64,000 bases of DNA from Thermostichus vulcanus str. 'Rupite'. GTDB taxonomy: Bacteria > Cyanobacteriota > Cyanobacteriia > Thermostichales > Thermostichaceae. A program made the translations under genes and the position numbers. Positions 533 through 13,532 of the stretch are shown one piece after another. Location: contig NZ_JAFIRA010000003.1 in assembly GCF_022848905.1 (NCBI RefSeq), forward strand, positions 62,001 through 126,000. The letters are read 5' to 3'. The notes under the pieces are model-generated. The model saw nothing but the letters and a program-made list of their open reading frames with translations. It was not told where the DNA came from and searched no databases. Each line of letters starts with the position of its first letter. Within the stretch, counting starts at the first letter, position 1.

Positions 533-2614
533 ATGTTTGCCAAGTTCGCCAACTGGACCCAGATGCATGGGGATCCTCTGGCAGTAGCCATTGGCCCGGT
601 GGAGAATCCGGTGCTGGTGTTTTTGATCATCATGACGATCATGCTGGTGGCCCCCTTGCTGTTTGAGCGGGTACGGTTGCCGGGGATCATCGGGTTGATC
701 TTGGCCGGCTTGGTGGTTGGCCCCTACGGCCTGGGCATCCTGCAGCGGGACGACACCATTATCCTGCTCGGCACAGTGGGGCTGTTGTTCCTCATGTTTA
801 TGGCTGGGTTGGAAACCAGCCTGGAGGATTTGAAGTTGAATGCGGGCAAGGCCAGTATTTTTGGTGCCCTCACTTTTTTGTTACCAATGCTGATTGGCAC
901 CGGGGCCATGCTGGCGCTGGGTTACAACTTTTTGGCGGCGGTGCTGGTAGCCTCCTGTTTTGCCTCCCACACCCTGATTGGCCTGCCGATTGTCTCGAAG
1001 CTGGGTTTGATGCGCCTACAAACGGTGACCGCAACCCTGGGGGCAACCCTGATCACCAATGTTTTGGCGCTGTTGGTGCTGGCGGTGGTGGTGCGGGCCC
1101 ATCAAGGGGAACTGACGCTGCAATTTTGGCTTACCCTGATCCCTTTGCTCACCCTCTACACCTTTGCCACCCTCTGGGGAGTTCCGAAGCTGGGAGGTTG
1201 GTTCTTTCAGCGCTTCGGGCACGATGAAGGGGCGGAGTTTACCTTCGTCATCGCCACCCTATTTGTGGTGGCCTATGGGGCAGAACTGATTGGCATTGAG
1301 CCGGTGGTGGGAGCCTTTCTGGCGGGTACCGCCATTACGCCGATCATCCCGCAGCTGAGTCCGCTCATGAACCGGATTCAGTTCATTGGTAATACCCTGT
1401 TTGTGCCCTTCTTTTTGATCTCGGTGGGGATGCTGATCAACCCCGGCATTCTGTTGGGGGAGCCGCGATCTCTGCTAGTGGGGGGGGTGATGATCGGGGC
1501 GGAGGTGGTGAGCAAGTTTGGGGCTGCTTGGATCCCGGCACAACTGTTTGGCTGGCGCTTCTCTAGCACGATGGTGATGTTTGGCCTGTCAATGGCTCAG
1601 GCGGCGGCAACGCTGGCGGCAATCACGGTGGCCTTTGAGGTGGAGCTGGTGGATGAGCTGACGGTGAATGGCACCATCGCCATGATCCTGGTCACCTGTG
1701 TTGCTTCTCCTTGGATTGTCGCCCGCTGGGGGGAACAAATGCAGCCGACGGAAGTGCTGGCAGAATCGACGGAATTACCGAAGCCTCGATGGGGAAGCCG
1801 GGTCTTGGTGCCGGTGGCCAACCCGGATACCGAGAATAATCTGCTGCGGCTGGCTTTAATTCTGGCCAAAAAAGAGGGTGGAACGCTGCTTCCCCTCCAT
1901 GTGCTGGTGGATCGCACCGGCATTTCACCGGGAGCGCTTTCCCAGCAGGAGCAGTTGTTGGCTTTTGCAGAAGCCTTTGCTCACAGTGCCCTGACCCAGG
2001 TGGAACCGATTCGGCGGGTGGATGACTCTATTGATAAAGGGATCGTCCGCTCGGCAGCAGAACGGCAGGCCAGCTTGGTGGTGCTGGGGTGGAAGGGCTA
2101 CTCCACCTATGCAGAGAATTTTTTCGGCAGTGTCATCGATGCAGTAGTACGGCAGGCCGGGATCCCGGTGCTGATCACCCGCTTTCCGGTGGCGATCGAA
2201 ATGACCCGACGCATTCTCTTGGCTGCTGCTGAGCCGGAGGTATCTGCCCGTTCCCTGCAGGAGACGGTGGGATTGGCGCAAACCTTGGCCAACGAGTTGA
2301 AAGCCGGTCTGCAGGTTCTCTTGGTGCAAACCCGACCGGGAGGGGAACGAGCAGTTCCTAAGCCGAAGTTGGACGAAACAGACTTCCCGAACTTACCGAT
2401 TCAACGGGTGCAGGGGGGTGTGGTGGCGGAAGTTCTCAAGGCACTGCAGCCGGGAGATCTGTTAATGTTGATCCCCAGCGAAGGTCGCAATCCATCCCGC
2501 TTAGGGCGAGAACCGGAGATCATCGCCCGCAATCGACCCACCCTTTCCATGATCGTGGTACATGTGCCACGGGATCCCGCCCATCGGGTGCCGACGGAGC
2601 AAAGCTGGTATTAA
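533..2614 (+). CDS. CPA2-family cation:proton antiporter with C-terminal universal-stress domains
   Basis: This is a 693-residue membrane transporter that should exchange Na+ or K+ for protons. Residues about 20 to 400 hold about a dozen hydrophobic segments of the KefB/CPA2 type, with the family signatures LPGIIGLILAGLVVGPYGLG and PVVGAFLAGTAI. After the membrane part, residues about 425 to 555 form a universal stress protein (USP) domain with the nucleotide-binding pattern VVLGWKG...FFGSVIDAVV. A second, more diverged USP-like unit follows to the C-terminus. Fusion to USP domains suggests nucleotide control of transport, which is inference. ATG at 533 is taken as start; no strong ribosome site is visible, and the next ATG is at 563. 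Confidence 0.88.
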   Translation: MFAKFANWTQMHGDPLAVAIGPVENPVLVFLIIMTIMLVAPLLFERVRLPGIIGLILAGLVVGPYGLGILQRDDTIILLGTVGLLFLMFMAGLETSLEDLKLNAGKASIFGALTFLLPMLIGTGAMLALGYNFLAAVLVASCFASHTLIGLPIVSKLGLMRLQTVTATLGATLITNVLALLVLAVVVRAHQGELTLQFWLTLIPLLTLYTFATLWGVPKLGGWFFQRFGHDEGAEFTFVIATLFVVAYGAELIGIEPVVGAFLAGTAITPIIPQLSPLMNRIQFIGNTLFVPFFLISVGMLINPGILLGEPRSLLVGGVMIGAEVVSKFGAAWIPAQLFGWRFSSTMVMFGLSMAQAAATLAAITVAFEVELVDELTVNGTIAMILVTCVASPWIVARWGEQMQPTEVLAESTELPKPRWGSRVLVPVANPDTENNLLRLALILAKKEGGTLLPLHVLVDRTGISPGALSQQEQLLAFAEAFAHSALTQVEPIRRVDDSIDKGIVRSAAERQASLVVLGWKGYSTYAENFFGSVIDAVVRQAGIPVLITRFPVAIEMTRRILLAAAEPEVSARSLQETVGLAQTLANELKAGLQVLLVQTRPGGERAVPKPKLDETDFPNLPIQRVQGGVVAEVLKALQPGDLLMLIPSEGRNPSRLGREPEIIARNRPTLSMIVVHVPRDPAHRVPTEQSWY

Positions 2615-6338: not shown

Positions 6339-6518
6339 AGCGCCCACCTGATTTCAGGATGCAAACCTTCTGCAGCTTAACATTTCTTAGTGTCTCTGGT
6401 GTCCCTGGTTGTCAGACCCACAGTCGAAGAAGTCGCCGGGAAGGGATCCCATCTGGATTACCCTAGAGAGGGCTTTGTCTAGCCCCATCCGCGTTTGCCT
6501 TTCCCTGCGAGTTGGTCT

Positions 6519-8045
6519 ATGTCCGTGATCCGTGCCCTGCATACCCAGTTGGTGAAGAAAGAGCGCTCTGCCGAAGAGATCGCCCGTGAATACCTGGATC
6601 GTCTCACCCAACTGGAGCCGCAGCTGAAAAGTTTCATCACAGTGACGGAGGAGCTGGCTCTCCAACAGGCTAGGGCTGTGGATGCCCAGATTCAAGCTGG
6701 GGAAGAGATTGGCCCTTTGGCAGGGATCCCGATTGCCATCAAAGACAACCTCTGTACGCGGGGGATCCCCACAACTTGTGCCTCCAAGATCCTGCAGGGG
6801 TTTATTCCTCCCTATGAGTCCACAGTGACGGCGCGACTGGCGGCAGCAGGCATGGTTACAGTGGGCAAAACCAACCTGGATGAGTTTGCCATGGGCAGTT
6901 CCACTGAGAACTCTGCTTTTCAACTCACCGCCAACCCCTGGGACTTAACTCGTGTACCAGGGGGATCCTCCGGCGGATCGGCGGCGGCGGTAGCTGCCGA
7001 TCAAGCCGTGGTGGCTTTGGGTTCCGATACCGGTGGGTCGATCCGTCAGCCGGCAGCCTTCTGTGGGGTGGTGGGCCTGAAACCCACCTACGGACTGGTG
7101 TCTCGCTATGGATTGGTGGCCTTTGCCTCTTCTTTGGATCAAATCGGGCCGTTCGGACGCACCGTTGAGGATGTGGCGTTGCTGCTGCAAGGGATCGCCG
7201 GTCACGACCCGATGGACTCCACCAGCCTCAAGGTACCCATTCCCGACTACAGCCAGGCTTTGATCCCAGAGATCAAGGGCTTGAAGGTGGGGGTGATCCG
7301 CGATCTGTTGGGGCAGGGGTGTGGTGATGAAACCCGTGCCGCTGTCCAAGCGGCCATTCAACATCTGCAAGAGTTGGGAGCTGAGATCCTCGAGATCGAT
7401 TGCCCCAGTTTTCAGTACGGTCTGGCCACCTACTACATCATTGCCCCGTCGGAAGCCTCCGCCAATTTGGCCCGCTACGACGGCGTGAAATACGGGCTAC
7501 GGGCACCTGCCGACTCGTTGGTGCCTATGTATGCCAAAACTCGGGAGCAAGGCTTTGGGCCTGAGGTAAAACGCCGCATTATGATCGGCACCTATGCCCT
7601 TTCCTCCGGCTATTACGATGCCTATTACCTAAAGGCCCAGAAGGTGCGTACCCTAATCAAGCAAGACTTTCTCAAGGCCTTTCAAAAGGTGGATGTGCTG
7701 GTCAGCCCCACCACGCCGACCCCAGCCTTCAAAGCAGGTGAGCGGGAGGATCCCCTCAGCATGTATCTGTGCGACCTGATGACCATCCCGGTGAATTTGG
7801 CGGGTTTGCCGGGGCTAAGCTTGCCCTGCGGGTTTGTGGATGGGCTACCGATTGGCCTACAAATTGTGGGTAATGCCCTCCAGGAGAGCAAAGTGTTACA
7901 GGTTGCCTACGCTTACGAGCAAAGCACCGACTGGCATAAACGTCGTCCCAGTCTTACCCAGCAACCCGTTGAAAAGCCCAAGGGATCCGACTCAACTTCT
8001 TCCTCGGGTCACTCCAAATCCAAAAAGACCCAAAAGAAGGGCTAG
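6519..8045 (+). CDS. gatA: Asp-tRNA(Asn)/Glu-tRNA(Gln) amidotransferase subunit A
   Basis: GatA is the amidase subunit of GatCAB, which makes ammonia from glutamine so that mischarged Glu-tRNA(Gln) or Asp-tRNA(Asn) can be amidated. The Ser-cisSer-Lys triad is visible: Lys75 in PIAIKDN, Ser149 in the glycine/serine-rich loop [11 protein letters not shown], and Ser173 in [15 protein letters not shown] 6519 gives 508 residues and the family-like start [11 protein letters not shown]; the frame is open to 6495. The last 30 residues are a low-complexity Ser/Lys-rich tail, an unusual add-on. gatB and gatC are not adjacent. Confidence 0.96.
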
Positions 8046-8151
8046 TTACAGCCCTTTCGCGGGTTTGCTACAACAACTGTTGTGTCCTGACCCCATTTTG
8101 AAAGGGCTCCGGGGATTCCCCCGTGCTAGGTGACTAGCGAAAGGGCTGTAA
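8046..8151 (+). other. 106-nt inverted-repeat element with switch-like internal repeat
   Basis: Directly after the gatA stop codon, 8046-8060 (TTACAGCCCTTTCGC) is the exact reverse complement of 8137-8151. Inside lie two small hairpins: 8070-8083, with a five-pair stem and AACT loop, and 8110-8123, with a GC-rich five-pair stem and ATTC loop. The core GAAAGGGCT occurs twice, at 8100-8108 and 8139-8147, and both copies can pair with AGCCCTTTC at 8050-8058, so two exclusive folds are possible. A run of T follows at about 8164-8170. It could be a gatA terminator, a structured RNA or a MITE-like element with 15-bp terminal repeats. Confidence 0.55.
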
Positions 8152-8464
8152 ACGGCTTTCCTGTTTTTTTATGGTGACAGCCTCAGGTATTCCAAATGTC
8201 AACACCCAATCGGGTAAGGATCCCAGGACAAAAACGCTCCCTCCCGACCATCTTTCCAGGAGAGCCGTTAAACAATAATTCCAGAAAATGGGATTAAACT
8301 TATAAAGATTGCCAGGAAAACTCTATCCCCTTGTGAGCGCGGTCGTTGACCTTGCTTGAATTCCGTAGTTTTGCGCATTTTCCTCAAGCAGCTTTTAACA
8401 TAAAAATAGAATTGATTCATAAATTGATCCATGATTGATTGCTTCATAATTGCGCGAATTGGAA
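8152..8464. other. Gene-free stretch upstream of the photoreceptor kinase
   Basis: No convincing gene is present. The first part holds a T run after the inverted-repeat element. The last 80 bases are AT-rich. They contain three copies of ATTGAT starting at 8411, 8423 and 8434, spaced 11-12 bases apart, about one helical turn. This looks like a regulator-binding region just before the kinase start, but no clear promoter hexamer pair could be fixed. Confidence 0.4.
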
Positions 8465-11191
8465 ATGATGCCTATGACTCAAGGCTCTGGATGGGTTCCA
8501 CCCTTGGAGCGGTTCCTTGAGCCAGTTCCCCTATTGGTAAGTCCTACCCACTCCGTCATCTCTGTCGTTAAATTTCTGGCTCAGAGAGGGTCTCCCTTCC
8601 GCTATGCCCTGGTAGGGGATCCCCACAAATTGGTTGGCATCCTGACGGCTACAGATGCATTGCGATGGCTGGCTCAGGGTGAGGGGGCGACGGATATCCC
8701 GGTTCAGGAGGTGATGACCACGCCTGTGCTGACCTTTGCTGCCCGCGACTATCGGGATCCCTTAACGCTGGTTCAGTTCATGCAGGCCCACGGAGTTCAG
8801 CATTTGCCAGTCGTGGATGCAACGGGATCCCTGCTGGGGGTTGTCAATCAAGAGGATCTCTGCCTGAACCTGATTCTGGAACACCGGCCATCCCAGCCTC
8901 CCTTGCCGACAGAAGCCCAGCAAGCGCTCACCACCTTGTGTCAGCTAGAAGAGGAAATCCTCACCGAGGAACTGCAAAAGGCCCTCAATCTGCGCATCGG
9001 CATTGAACACTCCATCCCCTTGGGCATTGCCGCTGCCGATTTTCAGGGCAAACAAATCTACGTCAACGATACCTTTGCCAAAATGGTGGGCTGGCCCAAA
9101 GAAGCCCTGCTTGGGCGGGATCCCCCCTATGTTTATTGGCCACCCGAGGAATTGGAGACTATTTTCGCAGCCTTCACTCAAGGCTTGAATCAAAGTCGGC
9201 CTTTGCAGGGATGGGAACTGACCTTTATGCGCCGCAACGGGGAGCGGTTTCCGGTACGCATTTTGGATGCTCCCTGGCGAGATGGTAAGGGAAATCTAAT
9301 CGGCATGATTGCCAGTGTGCAGGACTTAACCCCAGAAAAACATCAATTACAGCAAACCCATCTGCTCAGCCGCATCACGCAAGGGATCCGACAGTTCTCA
9401 CAAGTCGAAGACATTTTGAACTTCACTGTGCGGGAGATTCGCCACTTGCTACAGGTAGATCGGGTGGTTATTTACCGTTTTTTACCCAACTGGGCCGGAG
9501 AAATTGTTGCAGAATCTGTCAGTCAATCGAAATTCAGCCTGCTGGGTCGAGTCATTGAAGATCCCTGCTTCATGAGCGGGTGGCACCACCCCTATCAGCA
9601 GGGCCGCATTTCAGCCATTGAAGATATCGACACCGCTTCAGTTCAACCCTGTCACCGGGAGTTGCTAGCGAGTTTACAAGTGCGGGCAAACTTGGTGGTG
9701 CCCATTCTGCAAGCGGATTCCTCCCACACTTCTACCGAGCAAGAGTGCCTCTGGGGTCTGTTGATCGCCCATCACTGCACGGCCCCCAAAAGCTGGGATC
9801 CCTGGATGCCCGAATCCCTGAAGCAATTTGCGGATCAACTGGGTCTAGCGCTGCAACAGGCGGTTCTCGTCCAACGACTGCAGGCCACCAACGCCGAGCT
9901 GCAATACCAAGTGGAAGTGCGCAATGCCGAGCTGCGTCAACTGGTGAGCTATGAGCAACTGTTGCGATTGATCAGTGATAAAGTGCGCTCCAGTTTGTCT
10001 GAAGAAGACATCCTCACTACCGTTACTCAGGAACTCACCCAATCCCTACACCTGGGCGTTTGTGGGGTTGCTCTTCTTGAGGCAGAAACCCACACCTATA
10101 CTCTGGCTTATGAATTTGCAGGCTCTATGCCGAGCATTGGCAAAGTCTCACTGCCGATGGATCCCGTCCTTCTAAAACAACTGCAGCAGGGTCAAACCCT
10201 CTGTTTCAGCACCAATCATCCCCTGCGCGGTTGGTGTACCCTTGTCGCTTGCCCCTTACACACAGAACTCCAGGATCGGATCCCCTCGGAAGCCTCAGTG
10301 TCACAGACCCCATCCAAAACAACAACCTCACTGCTGGGTTTTCTGAAGTTAATTCGTCTCCCCCATGAAGGGTTTACTCCTGCCGAGATCCGCTTTGCGG
10401 AACAAATAGCCATCCAATGCAGTATCGCCATTCGCCAAGCTTGCCTTTACCAAGAAACTCAGAATCAGCTACAGCAGTTGATGAAGCTAAACCAGCTTAA
10501 AGAAGATTTTCTCAATATGGTCTCCCACGAGCTGCGCACTCCCCTCACCAGCATGAAAATGGCCCTAAAAATGCTGGAGGTAAGCGGCATTACCGAGAAG
10601 CAAATCCGCTACTTTAACATTCTCAAGCAAGAGTGGCAAAAAGAGCTGGATCTGGTCAACGATCTCCTGGATTTACAACGTCTGGAATCTGGTAGCCGTC
10701 AACTGGAAGTAACTCGCTTTTGCGTACAGGATCGGCTTACGGAAGTATTGGAGCCGTTTGCCTTGCGTTTTCAAGAACGTCAACTCACTTTCATCCCCCA
10801 AATTCCTTCGGATCCCTTTATCTTCACTACTGATGCAGGGTTATTGACTCGCATTCTGAGTGAATTGCTCAACAATGCTGTCAAATACACTCCTGCCGGC
10901 GAACAGATTCACTTATTGGTTTCTGGCTCCTCACTCCATTTACACTTACAAGTCACCAATACAGGGGTGCAGATCCCATCGGAGCATTTATCCCGTATTT
11001 TCGAGAAGTTTTATCGGGTTCCACAGCTGGATCAGGCACAACAGGGAGGCACCGGATTGGGTCTGCCGCTGGTTAAAAAAGCGGTGGAACTGTTGCGAGG
11101 AGACCTGCGGGCGGAAAGCCAAGAAAACCGTACCGTTTTTGAGGTAAGCCTGCCCAACTTATCGACAGACGGGAGCTCCCGCAATCCATAA
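8465..11191 (+). CDS. CBS-PAS-cyanobacteriochrome GAF-GAF sensor histidine kinase
   Basis: This 908-residue soluble sensor kinase has, in order: two CBS domains (about 20-145), a PAS domain (about 185-290), a phytochrome-type GAF domain (about 300-480), a second GAF (about 505-670), a dimerisation/phosphoacceptor domain with His688 in SHELRTPLTS, and an ATPase domain with GGTGLGL near 860. The first GAF has the bilin-binding cysteine Cys396 in PCHRELLASLQVRANLVVP. It also has a second cysteine, Cys368, in a DPCF motif 28 residues earlier, the layout of DXCF-type cyanobacteriochromes. It is therefore probably a light sensor, perhaps also reading adenylates through CBS. No partner response regulator is adjacent. 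Start choice is ATG 8465 or 8474. Confidence 0.9.
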   Translation: MMPMTQGSGWVPPLERFLEPVPLLVSPTHSVISVVKFLAQRGSPFRYALVGDPHKLVGILTATDALRWLAQGEGATDIPVQEVMTTPVLTFAARDYRDPLTLVQFMQAHGVQHLPVVDATGSLLGVVNQEDLCLNLILEHRPSQPPLPTEAQQALTTLCQLEEEILTEELQKALNLRIGIEHSIPLGIAAADFQGKQIYVNDTFAKMVGWPKEALLGRDPPYVYWPPEELETIFAAFTQGLNQSRPLQGWELTFMRRNGERFPVRILDAPWRDGKGNLIGMIASVQDLTPEKHQLQQTHLLSRITQGIRQFSQVEDILNFTVREIRHLLQVDRVVIYRFLPNWAGEIVAESVSQSKFSLLGRVIEDPCFMSGWHHPYQQGRISAIEDIDTASVQPCHRELLASLQVRANLVVPILQADSSHTSTEQECLWGLLIAHHCTAPKSWDPWMPESLKQFADQLGLALQQAVLVQRLQATNAELQYQVEVRNAELRQLVSYEQLLRLISDKVRSSLSEEDILTTVTQELTQSLHLGVCGVALLEAETHTYTLAYEFAGSMPSIGKVSLPMDPVLLKQLQQGQTLCFSTNHPLRGWCTLVACPLHTELQDRIPSEASVSQTPSKTTTSLLGFLKLIRLPHEGFTPAEIRFAEQIAIQCSIAIRQACLYQETQNQLQQLMKLNQLKEDFLNMVSHELRTPLTSMKMALKMLEVSGITEKQIRYFNILKQEWQKELDLVNDLLDLQRLESGSRQLEVTRFCVQDRLTEVLEPFALRFQERQLTFIPQIPSDPFIFTTDAGLLTRILSELLNNAVKYTPAGEQIHLLVSGSSLHLHLQVTNTGVQIPSEHLSRIFEKFYRVPQLDQAQQGGTGLGLPLVKKAVELLRGDLRAESQENRTVFEVSLPNLSTDGSSRNP

Positions 11192-11330
11192 AAAACCGGT
11201 GCTGGCCAAGGACATGGCAGCCGATGACAACGGTTGAAGCTGTGTTAATATTTTGCATAACTTACACAGTTTGGGGTAGCTGACCCTTTTTGGATCGGTT
11301 TTTGGGATCCTGTCAGCGGTGCGTAGCACT

Positions 11331-11861
11331 ATGGGCAAAGTTTTGGTTTTGAATGCCTCCTACGAGCCGCTCAACATTACCAGTTGGCGTCGGGCAGTCA
11401 TTCTTTTACTCAAGGGCAAAGCGGAACAAATCGAGCACAACGGCAGAGTGGTCTACGGCAACATGCCTTTGCCCACTGTCATTCGTCTGCGCCACTACGT
11501 CCACATTCCCCACAAAGAGATCCCCCTCACCCGTCGCAATGTTCTGTATCGGGATGCCCACCGTTGTCAGTACTGCGGCTGTTCTGGAGAGGATCTCACC
11601 CTCGATCACATTATTCCCCGTTCCCGTGGCGGCGGAGACACCTGGGAAAATGTCGTCAGTGCCTGTGTGCGCTGCAATGTCAAAAAGGGAAATCGCACCC
11701 CCCGTGAGGCCGGTATGCCTTTGTTACGCCAACCCCGTCGACCCCATAGCACCCTTCATTTTGAAATTTCCAAAGCGGTCGGCAGCGGCACCCACCGAGA
11801 GTGGTCGAAATACACCATCGGGTTGGAAGGGGGTTCGGAGGAGGAGCTGCCAAACAGCTAA
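11331..11861 (+). CDS. HNH endonuclease family protein
   Basis: The 176-residue protein has an N-terminal region beginning MGKVLVLNASYEPLNITSW and a C-terminal HNH nuclease domain. Paired zinc cysteines are seen in CQYCG and CVRCN, and the HNH core is DHIIPRSRGGGDTWENVV. Stand-alone proteins of this type are common in cyanobacteria and actinobacteria; their substrate is unclear. A GTG at 11319 would add four residues, but ATG 11331 matches the family start. No intron or restriction gene is adjacent, so a homing or defence role is not supported. Confidence 0.88.
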   Translation: MGKVLVLNASYEPLNITSWRRAVILLLKGKAEQIEHNGRVVYGNMPLPTVIRLRHYVHIPHKEIPLTRRNVLYRDAHRCQYCGCSGEDLTLDHIIPRSRGGGDTWENVVSACVRCNVKKGNRTPREAGMPLLRQPRRPHSTLHFEISKAVGSGTHREWSKYTIGLEGGSEEELPNS

Positions 11862-11871
11862 GGATGTGATG

Positions 11872-12807
11872 TTAGGGAGGTGATTCTGAGACAGAGGCAG
11901 CCTTAGAAATCGGGGGCGATGTGGTGGCCGGGAGCCCGGTCTCAATCCAATCGCGAATCAAAGGATTCACCAGTTCTGGGCGCTCATCGTGAGGGCAGTG
12001 GCCGGCCTCTATGAAATGCTCCACCAACTGCGGGTAATGGGCGCGGTACAACTTGGAGCGTTCGCGGGCCCGCATCCAGGGATCCCGTTCTCCCCAAATC
12101 AATAACAACGGACGCACCAAACTGCGCAGCAACTCATCCACATAACGGCCTTTCTGGCCTCCTCGCATCAGAGCCGCAAACACATCCGCCGCCCCCGGAT
12201 CCATGCTGGGGCGATGGATATCTTCAACCAACTGATCCGTCACCGCTGCCGGATCATAGTAAACCTGTTTTAACTTTTCTCGAATCACCCGGGGCTGCCG
12301 CAAATACAGAAACAGCAGGTACGACACCAGGCGCTGGCGCAACCCCCAACCCACCAGGCCACCCAACCATTGTTTCCATCCCGTTGGGGATCCCCCCAGA
12401 GTGGAAAAGCCACCCGCCCCATTGAGCAGAACCACGCCGCGAATCCACTCCGGCCACTCTGCCGCCAAACTCAGCACCACATAGCCCCCAAGGGAGTTGC
12501 CAATCCCCACCACGGGCCGACGCACCACCTGTTGGCAAAAGTCCCGCAGTTGATCCCGCCAAATCTCGGTGCGGTAATCCCAGTTGGGCTTGGCAGAACG
12601 ACCAAAACCCAGCAAATCGATGGCGTAAACCTGATAATGTTGGGCCAATTCGGGGATGTTTTTGCGCCAGTGGTCGGTGGAGGCCCCGAAGCCATGTACC
12701 AAAAGCAAAGGCTGCCCGTGCTCACCCTGTTTGACGTAGTGAACTGACTGCCCTCGCCAAATCCAGCGCGCCGAGGTAGGAGTGGCCGATGCCGATGTTG
12801 AAGTCAT
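11872..12807 (-). CDS. Alpha/beta-fold hydrolase
   Basis: The 311-residue product is an alpha/beta hydrolase. The oxyanion region is LLVHGFGASTDHW, the nucleophile Ser lies in GIGNSLGGYV, the acid in LIWGERDPW, and the histidine in EAGHCPHDERP. Related cyanobacterial and plant proteins include chlorophyll dephytylases and pheophytinase-like enzymes, but nothing here fixes the substrate. ATG 12807 is preferred to the TTG at 12822. It is convergent with the HNH gene and divergent from ruvA. Confidence 0.85.
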   Translation of the reverse strand: MTSTSASATPTSARWIWRGQSVHYVKQGEHGQPLLLVHGFGASTDHWRKNIPELAQHYQVYAIDLLGFGRSAKPNWDYRTEIWRDQLRDFCQQVVRRPVVGIGNSLGGYVVLSLAAEWPEWIRGVVLLNGAGGFSTLGGSPTGWKQWLGGLVGWGLRQRLVSYLLFLYLRQPRVIREKLKQVYYDPAAVTDQLVEDIHRPSMDPGAADVFAALMRGGQKGRYVDELLRSLVRPLLLIWGERDPWMRARERSKLYRAHYPQLVEHFIEAGHCPHDERPELVNPLIRDWIETGLPATTSPPISKAASVSESPP

Positions 12808-12917
12808 AATGACCGTCCGCAAGCCTCTTTCATTCTAGATTCTCCTTGGCGCTTCCCCTAGGGGCTGATCCGGAGTCTTGGCCTGGCAGTATCCTAAACA
12901 CGGGTTGGATTGACAGC

Positions 12918-13532
12918 ATGATCGCGTTTTTAATGGGCCATCTGGTAGCCATCGAGTTGGGGGAACGGAGCAACCTGACCGTTGAGGTGCAGGGGATCGG
13001 CTATCGGGTCAAAGCACCGGAGCGGTTCCTCAAGCAATTGCCTGCTTTGGGAGAGTCGATCCAGGTGTTTACCCACTTGGTGGTTCGAGAAACGGAGTTG
13101 GTGTTGTATGGATTTGGCTCCGGCGCCGAGCGAGACTTATTTGTGGAGCTGATCAAGGTTTCGGGAGTGGGGCCGGCGCTGGGATTGGCCCTGCTCAATA
13201 CCCTCAGCCTGCCGGAATTGGTGCAAGCCGTGGTCACCGACAATATACGAGTGCTTTCCCGCACCCCCGGCGTGGGCTACAAAACTGCCCAAAGGCTGGC
13301 TCTAGAACTCAAAACCAAATTGGCCAACTGGCGACAGGGGGCGGGAGTGAGTGAACAAATCTTAGCTGGAGGCCCCCCTATGCCCATCCGCGAAGAAGTA
13401 GAAATGGCCCTCCTTGCCCTCGGCTACAGCGCCAGCGAAATTTATACAGCTCTGCAAGCCCTGCCCCCGCAACCCCAACAAACGGAAGACTGGCTGCGCG
13501 CTGCCATCACCTACCTGAGCCAGCAACCATGA
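12918..13532 (+). CDS. ruvA: Holliday junction branch migration protein RuvA
   Basis: RuvA tetramers bind four-way DNA junctions and load the RuvB motor. The 204-residue product shows the OB-fold N-terminus MIAFLMGHLVAIEL, the helix-hairpin-helix segments LIKVSGVGPALGLALL and LSRTPGVGYKTAQRLALELK, and the C-terminal RuvB-contact domain (EVEMALLALGYSASEI). The frame is open to 12846, but the RuvA signature begins at ATG 12918. Its stop overlaps the nadD start as ATGA, so the two are translationally coupled. Confidence 0.96.
   Translation: MIAFLMGHLVAIELGERSNLTVEVQGIGYRVKAPERFLKQLPALGESIQVFTHLVVRETELVLYGFGSGAERDLFVELIKVSGVGPALGLALLNTLSLPELVQAVVTDNIRVLSRTPGVGYKTAQRLALELKTKLANWRQGAGVSEQILAGGPPMPIREEVEMALLALGYSASEIYTALQALPPQPQQTEDWLRAAITYLSQQP

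Follow-up and report, generated by a model that had tools for sequence, protein, structure and literature searches.

Does the reading frame at 8465-11191 of the window (the whole 64 kb stretch of DNA that was analysed) encode a photoreceptor for short-wavelength light, and does the CBS pair at its N-terminus provide a second, energy-related input? The frame specifies a sensor histidine kinase in which Pfam recognised two stretches of CBS, a PAS domain, two stretches of GAF, HisKA and HATPase_c, each family scoring above its curated cut-off; the same scan found no PHY domain in the protein. The open frame reaches five codons further upstream, to a TTG at 8450 (ORF listing), and the ATG at 8465 is a reasonable assignment for the start of the 908-residue kinase.

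8465..11191, + strand: CBS-CBS-PAS-GAF(DXCF)-GAF-HisKA-HATPase sensor histidine kinase, 908 aa from ATG 8465 (translation, Pfam)
8522..8689, + strand: CBS1, about aa 20-75, motif G-I-L-T-A-T-D (Pfam, sequence)
8699..8872, + strand: CBS2, about aa 79-136, motif G-V-V-N-Q-E-D (Pfam, 80-133; sequence)
8981..9352, + strand: PAS, about aa 173-296 (Pfam PF00989, E 1.5e-13)
9353..9889, + strand: GAF1, predicted cyanobacteriochrome chromophore domain, about aa 297-475 (Pfam, phmmer, AlphaFold2, Foldseek)
9566..9568, + strand: Cys368, second (DXCF) cysteine, equivalent to C494 of TePixJ (translation, alignment)
9650..9652, + strand: Cys396, the canonical cysteine for bilin attachment, with His397 directly after it; counterpart of C522-H523 of TePixJ (translation, alignment)
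9977..10444, + strand: GAF2, divergent, without the bilin cysteine motif, about aa 505-660 (Pfam)
10499..10693, + strand: HisKA, with the phospho-acceptor His688 in S-H-E-L-R-T-P (codon 10526-10528; Pfam, motif)
10832..11155, + strand: HATPase_c, with N, F and G2 boxes and a G1 box reading N-T-G (Pfam, motif)

The case for a photoreceptor rests on GAF1; the sequence of GAF2 lacks a DXCF/CH signature. The preliminary description had located Cys368 in DPCF (D366-P-C-F369) and Cys396 in PCHRELL (P395-C-H-R-E-L-L), 28 residues apart, and had stated an equal spacing for TePixJ. Translation bears out the former statement, and the latter agrees with the use of C494 and C522, likewise 28 apart, by TePixJ (PMC6955287). 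The pattern D.CF-26-C[HY] matches only once in the six-frame translation of the entire 64 kb window and occurs once per 50,000 residue shuffles of the 908-aa kinase; hence, the two-cysteine motif is not due to chance. The spacing itself, considered as special evidence, had to be rejected, as it is the norm of the family (131 of 136 DXCF GAFs collected for comparison). At the level of sequence, it supports membership in the DXCF family and nothing finer; blue/green, blue/teal and teal/yellow sensors cannot be told apart by it.

Cyanobacteriochromes were the top matches when the GAF1 region was compared with the PDB by phmmer. The alignment with the TePixJ GAF domain (3vv4; E 1e-17) is ungapped from DPCF to CH and pairs D366, Cys368, Cys396 and H397 with D492, C494, C522 and H523, residues whose roles in TePixJ have been described (PMC6955287). 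The pocket motifs of GAF1 (IEDPCF, W, YQQGRI, CH, RANLVVP) are likewise TePixJ-like. An AlphaFold2 model built from an alignment of 44 sequences, among which the canonical cysteine is invariant and the DXCF cysteine is conserved in at least 90%, reached a mean pLDDT of 88.8 and a pTM of 0.86. Foldseek matched this model to 6oap, miRFP670nano and the TePixJ structures 4fof, 4glq, 3vv4 and 6p58 with E values from 1e-14 to 9e-20 (3e-16 for 4fof), and VIA-align yielded Z scores of 21.6-23.5 against these bilin GAFs. Structure prediction against TePixJ, which the preliminary description had proposed as a check, gave a bilin-type GAF fold whose best matches are bilin-binding GAFs, and the model and the ungapped alignment both speak against a location of the two cysteines away from the chromophore pocket. 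GAF1 and the TePixJ GAF (PDB 3vv4, 4glq, 4fof, 6p58) thus share the DPCF and CH cysteines, the pocket motif and the fold; they differ in that TePixJ is a protein of the methyl-accepting chemotaxis type and not a kinase, and in Q526, the position of which is taken by Leu400 in GAF1, a substitution that we count against our preferred explanation. Judged by both cysteines, the TePixJ alignment and the fold model, GAF1 is very probably a dual-Cys DXCF-type short-wavelength sensor domain, as had been proposed, with colours that lie beyond what the sequence alone can tell.

These colours are uncertain, since some DXCF-like domains keep PCB or show unusual colours. A bilin might accordingly be held by Cys396 in the absence of an adduct between Cys368 and C10, which would give, for example, a DpxA-like yellow/teal or a green/teal sensor and not a blue/green one. 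The spectral variety of short-wavelength cyanobacteriochromes is in keeping with this alternative: DpxA of Fremyella diplosiphon, a teal/yellow member of this group with measured kinase activity, switches between 494 and 568 nm (PMC4937213), and the second cysteine is missing from the solved GAFs closest to GAF1 in sequence, 6oap and the miRFP670nano series. However, the surroundings of the motif are TePixJ-like in GAF1, and TePixJ does form the C10 adduct (PMC6955287), so that we regard a sensor devoid of the adduct as unlikely.

The genome can supply a suitable chromophore. It encodes a single heme oxygenase and a single bilin reductase, a PcyA equivalog scoring above the cut-off, and phycocyanobilin can therefore be made. 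Two further DXCF GAF proteins are encoded in the same genome, one with DNCF/CH in a 945-aa frame (L017; G000:C6) and one with DDCF/CH in a 1564-aa frame (L066; G000:C12); since at least these two accompany the present kinase, several short-wavelength sensors are probable in this organism.

On the output side, a motif check found the H (His688), N, F and G2 boxes all in place, while the G1 box (about aa 832-835; window 10958-10969) reads N-T-G instead of the usual D-x-G. The latter is not strictly needed for membership in the histidine kinase family. Because the same change is present in relatives (L010, L012 and L048), it is a trait of the GAF2-HisKA-HATPase subfamily and not the decay of one copy. 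For its possible effect on the use of ATP, we count it among the points against our preferred explanation. The neighbours of the kinase gene are:

6495-8045: amidase
11319-11861: HNH protein
11872-12822: alpha/beta hydrolase
12846-13532: RuvA

Since no response regulator gene is found among these neighbours (6495-13532), the kinase looks like an orphan, which we also list on the opposing side. Elsewhere in the window (533-2614) lies a gene for a fusion of a Na+/H+ exchanger with a universal stress protein (Usp) domain.

We consider the protein to be an orphan cytoplasmic sensor histidine kinase under the control of its dual-Cys DXCF cyanobacteriochrome domain, and assign a probability of roughly 0.83 to this reading, the light mechanism included. 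For this kinase, we infer bilin binding, the photocycle and its colours, and the direction of kinase control; the light-switch part of the proposal follows the TePixJ mechanism (PMC6955287; PMC11284453). Cys396 would permanently hold the A-ring of phycocyanobilin or of its isomer phycoviolobilin, and in the dark 15Z state Cys368 would additionally be bonded to C10, resulting in the absorption of blue light. Blue light would then isomerise the C15=C16 bond, the bond between C10 and Cys368 would break, and a 15E state absorbing at longer wavelength (green, teal or yellow) would form. The signal may run through the helix between GAF1 and GAF2 to HisKA. There, the autophosphorylation of His688 would be altered, as would phosphotransfer to a response regulator whose gene lies elsewhere in the genome. 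We take the CBS pair, the PAS domain and GAF2 to be accessory modules, perhaps with a modulatory function.

Is such a kinase maintained in the genus? Of the five other genomes of the genus that were searched, only two contain a clear orthologue (L010 and L011), and this patchy occurrence, together with an architecture in flux, might suggest that GAF1 is degenerate or does not sense light, its cysteines having been kept by descent. L010 (genome G007) has 1054 aa and is 67% identical over aa 187-905; it shares both CBS domains, both cysteines, GAF2, HisKA and HATPase with the 908-aa kinase but possesses a second PAS domain. Since L011 shares this second PAS, it was probably lost from the 908-aa kinase. 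Purifying selection is evident in the comparison with L010, as dN/dS is well below 1 in each domain that yielded a dS estimate, namely CBS2 (dN 0.22, dS 0.78), PAS, GAF1 (dN 0.13, dS 1.2), GAF2 and the kinase part (dN 0.17, dS 1.7); CBS1, with 55% identity, is the least conserved domain. GAF1 and both of its cysteines are strongly conserved in all three orthologues, and the bilin-synthesis genes are present in the genome. Both observations argue against a degenerate GAF1, which we hold to be highly improbable; the protein is very probably a real, functional DXCF photoreceptor kinase.

In L011, from a sister species (genome G003), a mobile element of 276 bp splits CBS1 in frame, and a deletion has removed most of CBS2 as well as about half of PAS1. 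GAF1 and the kinase part of L011 are intact, 69% and 76% identical to those of the 908-aa kinase, and their dN is far lower than their dS. Either the core function does not require the CBS pair, or the L011 copy has taken on a different role. The 276-bp element ends near a CCCCGTACTTTAGTACGGGG hairpin, and another copy is located in L162. G003 contains several near full-length copies of at least 90% identity and many others confined to its two ends; the element therefore has the look of a derivative that arose from a larger insertion sequence by internal deletion.

The preliminary description had also regarded the order of the domains as unfamiliar, a view that the architecture search did not sustain. 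A combination of CBS, DXCF GAF and histidine kinase is widespread in cyanobacteria, and the domain order of the present kinase is common, not new. A nearly identical order, CBS-PAS-PAS-GAF(DPCF/CH)-GAF-HisKA-HATPase with both cysteines, is found in a 1026-aa protein from another family (L048; genome G018), which differs by one extra PAS and a second CBS that is weakly recognisable. Novelty of the architecture was rejected, as CBS-(PAS)-DXCF GAF-histidine kinase proteins occur in several other cyanobacterial families, with the orders CBSx4-PAS-DPCF GAF-GAF2-HK (L072), CBSx4-PAS-DTCF GAF-GAF-PAS-GAF-HK-receiver (L063; Pfam) and CBSx4-DPCF GAF-HK (L158). These three proteins and L048 were read directly within a targeted collection that holds several dozen ORFs with CBS and a D-x-C-F GAF; its loci were picked for likely matches, some being truncated or duplicate, and its motifs were identified by pattern, so that this number is not a frequency. 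Among the loci L163-L232, CBS tandems of three or four copies are N-terminal in many cyanobacterial sensor proteins of 1000-2750 aa, where they often immediately precede a bilin-type GAF.

The CBS-PAS-DXCF GAF arrangement also forms the input half of a 775-aa protein of Thermosynechococcus-type genomes (L060/L054) that consists of CBS repeats, PAS, a DPCF GAF and GGDEF. Numbering from the initial Met places its DXCF cysteine at residue 499, in agreement with the published position in Tlr0924 (PMC4067208), and by this position, its GGDEF output and its genomic origin we identify it as Tlr0924/SesA. SesA, a DXCF blue/green diguanylate cyclase from Thermosynechococcus, shares the N-terminal CBS domains followed by PAS and the DXCF GAF (DPCF), but its CBS domains number four and its output is GGDEF, whereas the 908-aa kinase continues with GAF2-HisKA-HATPase; its histidine kinase output (Pfam) sets it apart from SesA/Tlr0924 orthologues. 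Among the papers covered, literature searches combining cyanobacteriochrome and CBS returned none that describes the pairing. The CBS domains in histidine kinases of thermophilic cyanobacteria have been tabulated as adenosine-nucleotide binding, with a count of zero for the Thermostichus strains examined (PMC9953108).

Whether the CBS pair is a true second input, with the putative binding of adenine nucleotides gating the light response, is a separate matter. In favour of such a role, the CBS region gives matches to CBS proteins of known structure, CBS1 carries a motif (G-I-L-T-A-T-D) that fits the ribose-binding consensus G-h-x-T-x-x-D (also written G-h-x-[TS]-x-x-D) and is retained in L010 (G-I-F-T-A-G-D), CBS2 is the subject of the purifying selection noted above, and the pairing of CBS with photoreceptor-like domains recurs in many cyanobacterial proteins. 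Against it stand the low conservation of CBS1 relative to L010, an Asn in CBS2 (G-V-V-N-Q-E-D) where the consensus has Thr or Ser, and the disruption of both CBS domains in L011 next to an intact GAF1 and kinase. Furthermore, not all CBS pairs bind a nucleotide. We find a dual input doubtful for this kinase. In a broader reading, elaborated from the preliminary description, adenine nucleotides bound by the CBS pair would adjust either the photocycle or the kinase, so that light colour and energy charge are joined in one protein; this is in our view rather improbable. Should it be true, such a light-plus-energy input would be a general but unrecognised trait of cyanobacterial light sensing, given how widely CBS-DXCF proteins occur with a kinase or a GGDEF output.

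The protein is a further likely light-sensor kinase of the blue/green type in its cyanobacterial lineage. The wider point is that CBS tandems often precede cyanobacteriochrome GAFs, both in kinases and in diguanylate cyclases. A modulation by adenine nucleotides would be directly testable in SesA, since this protein has reportedly been purified and assayed in other work.
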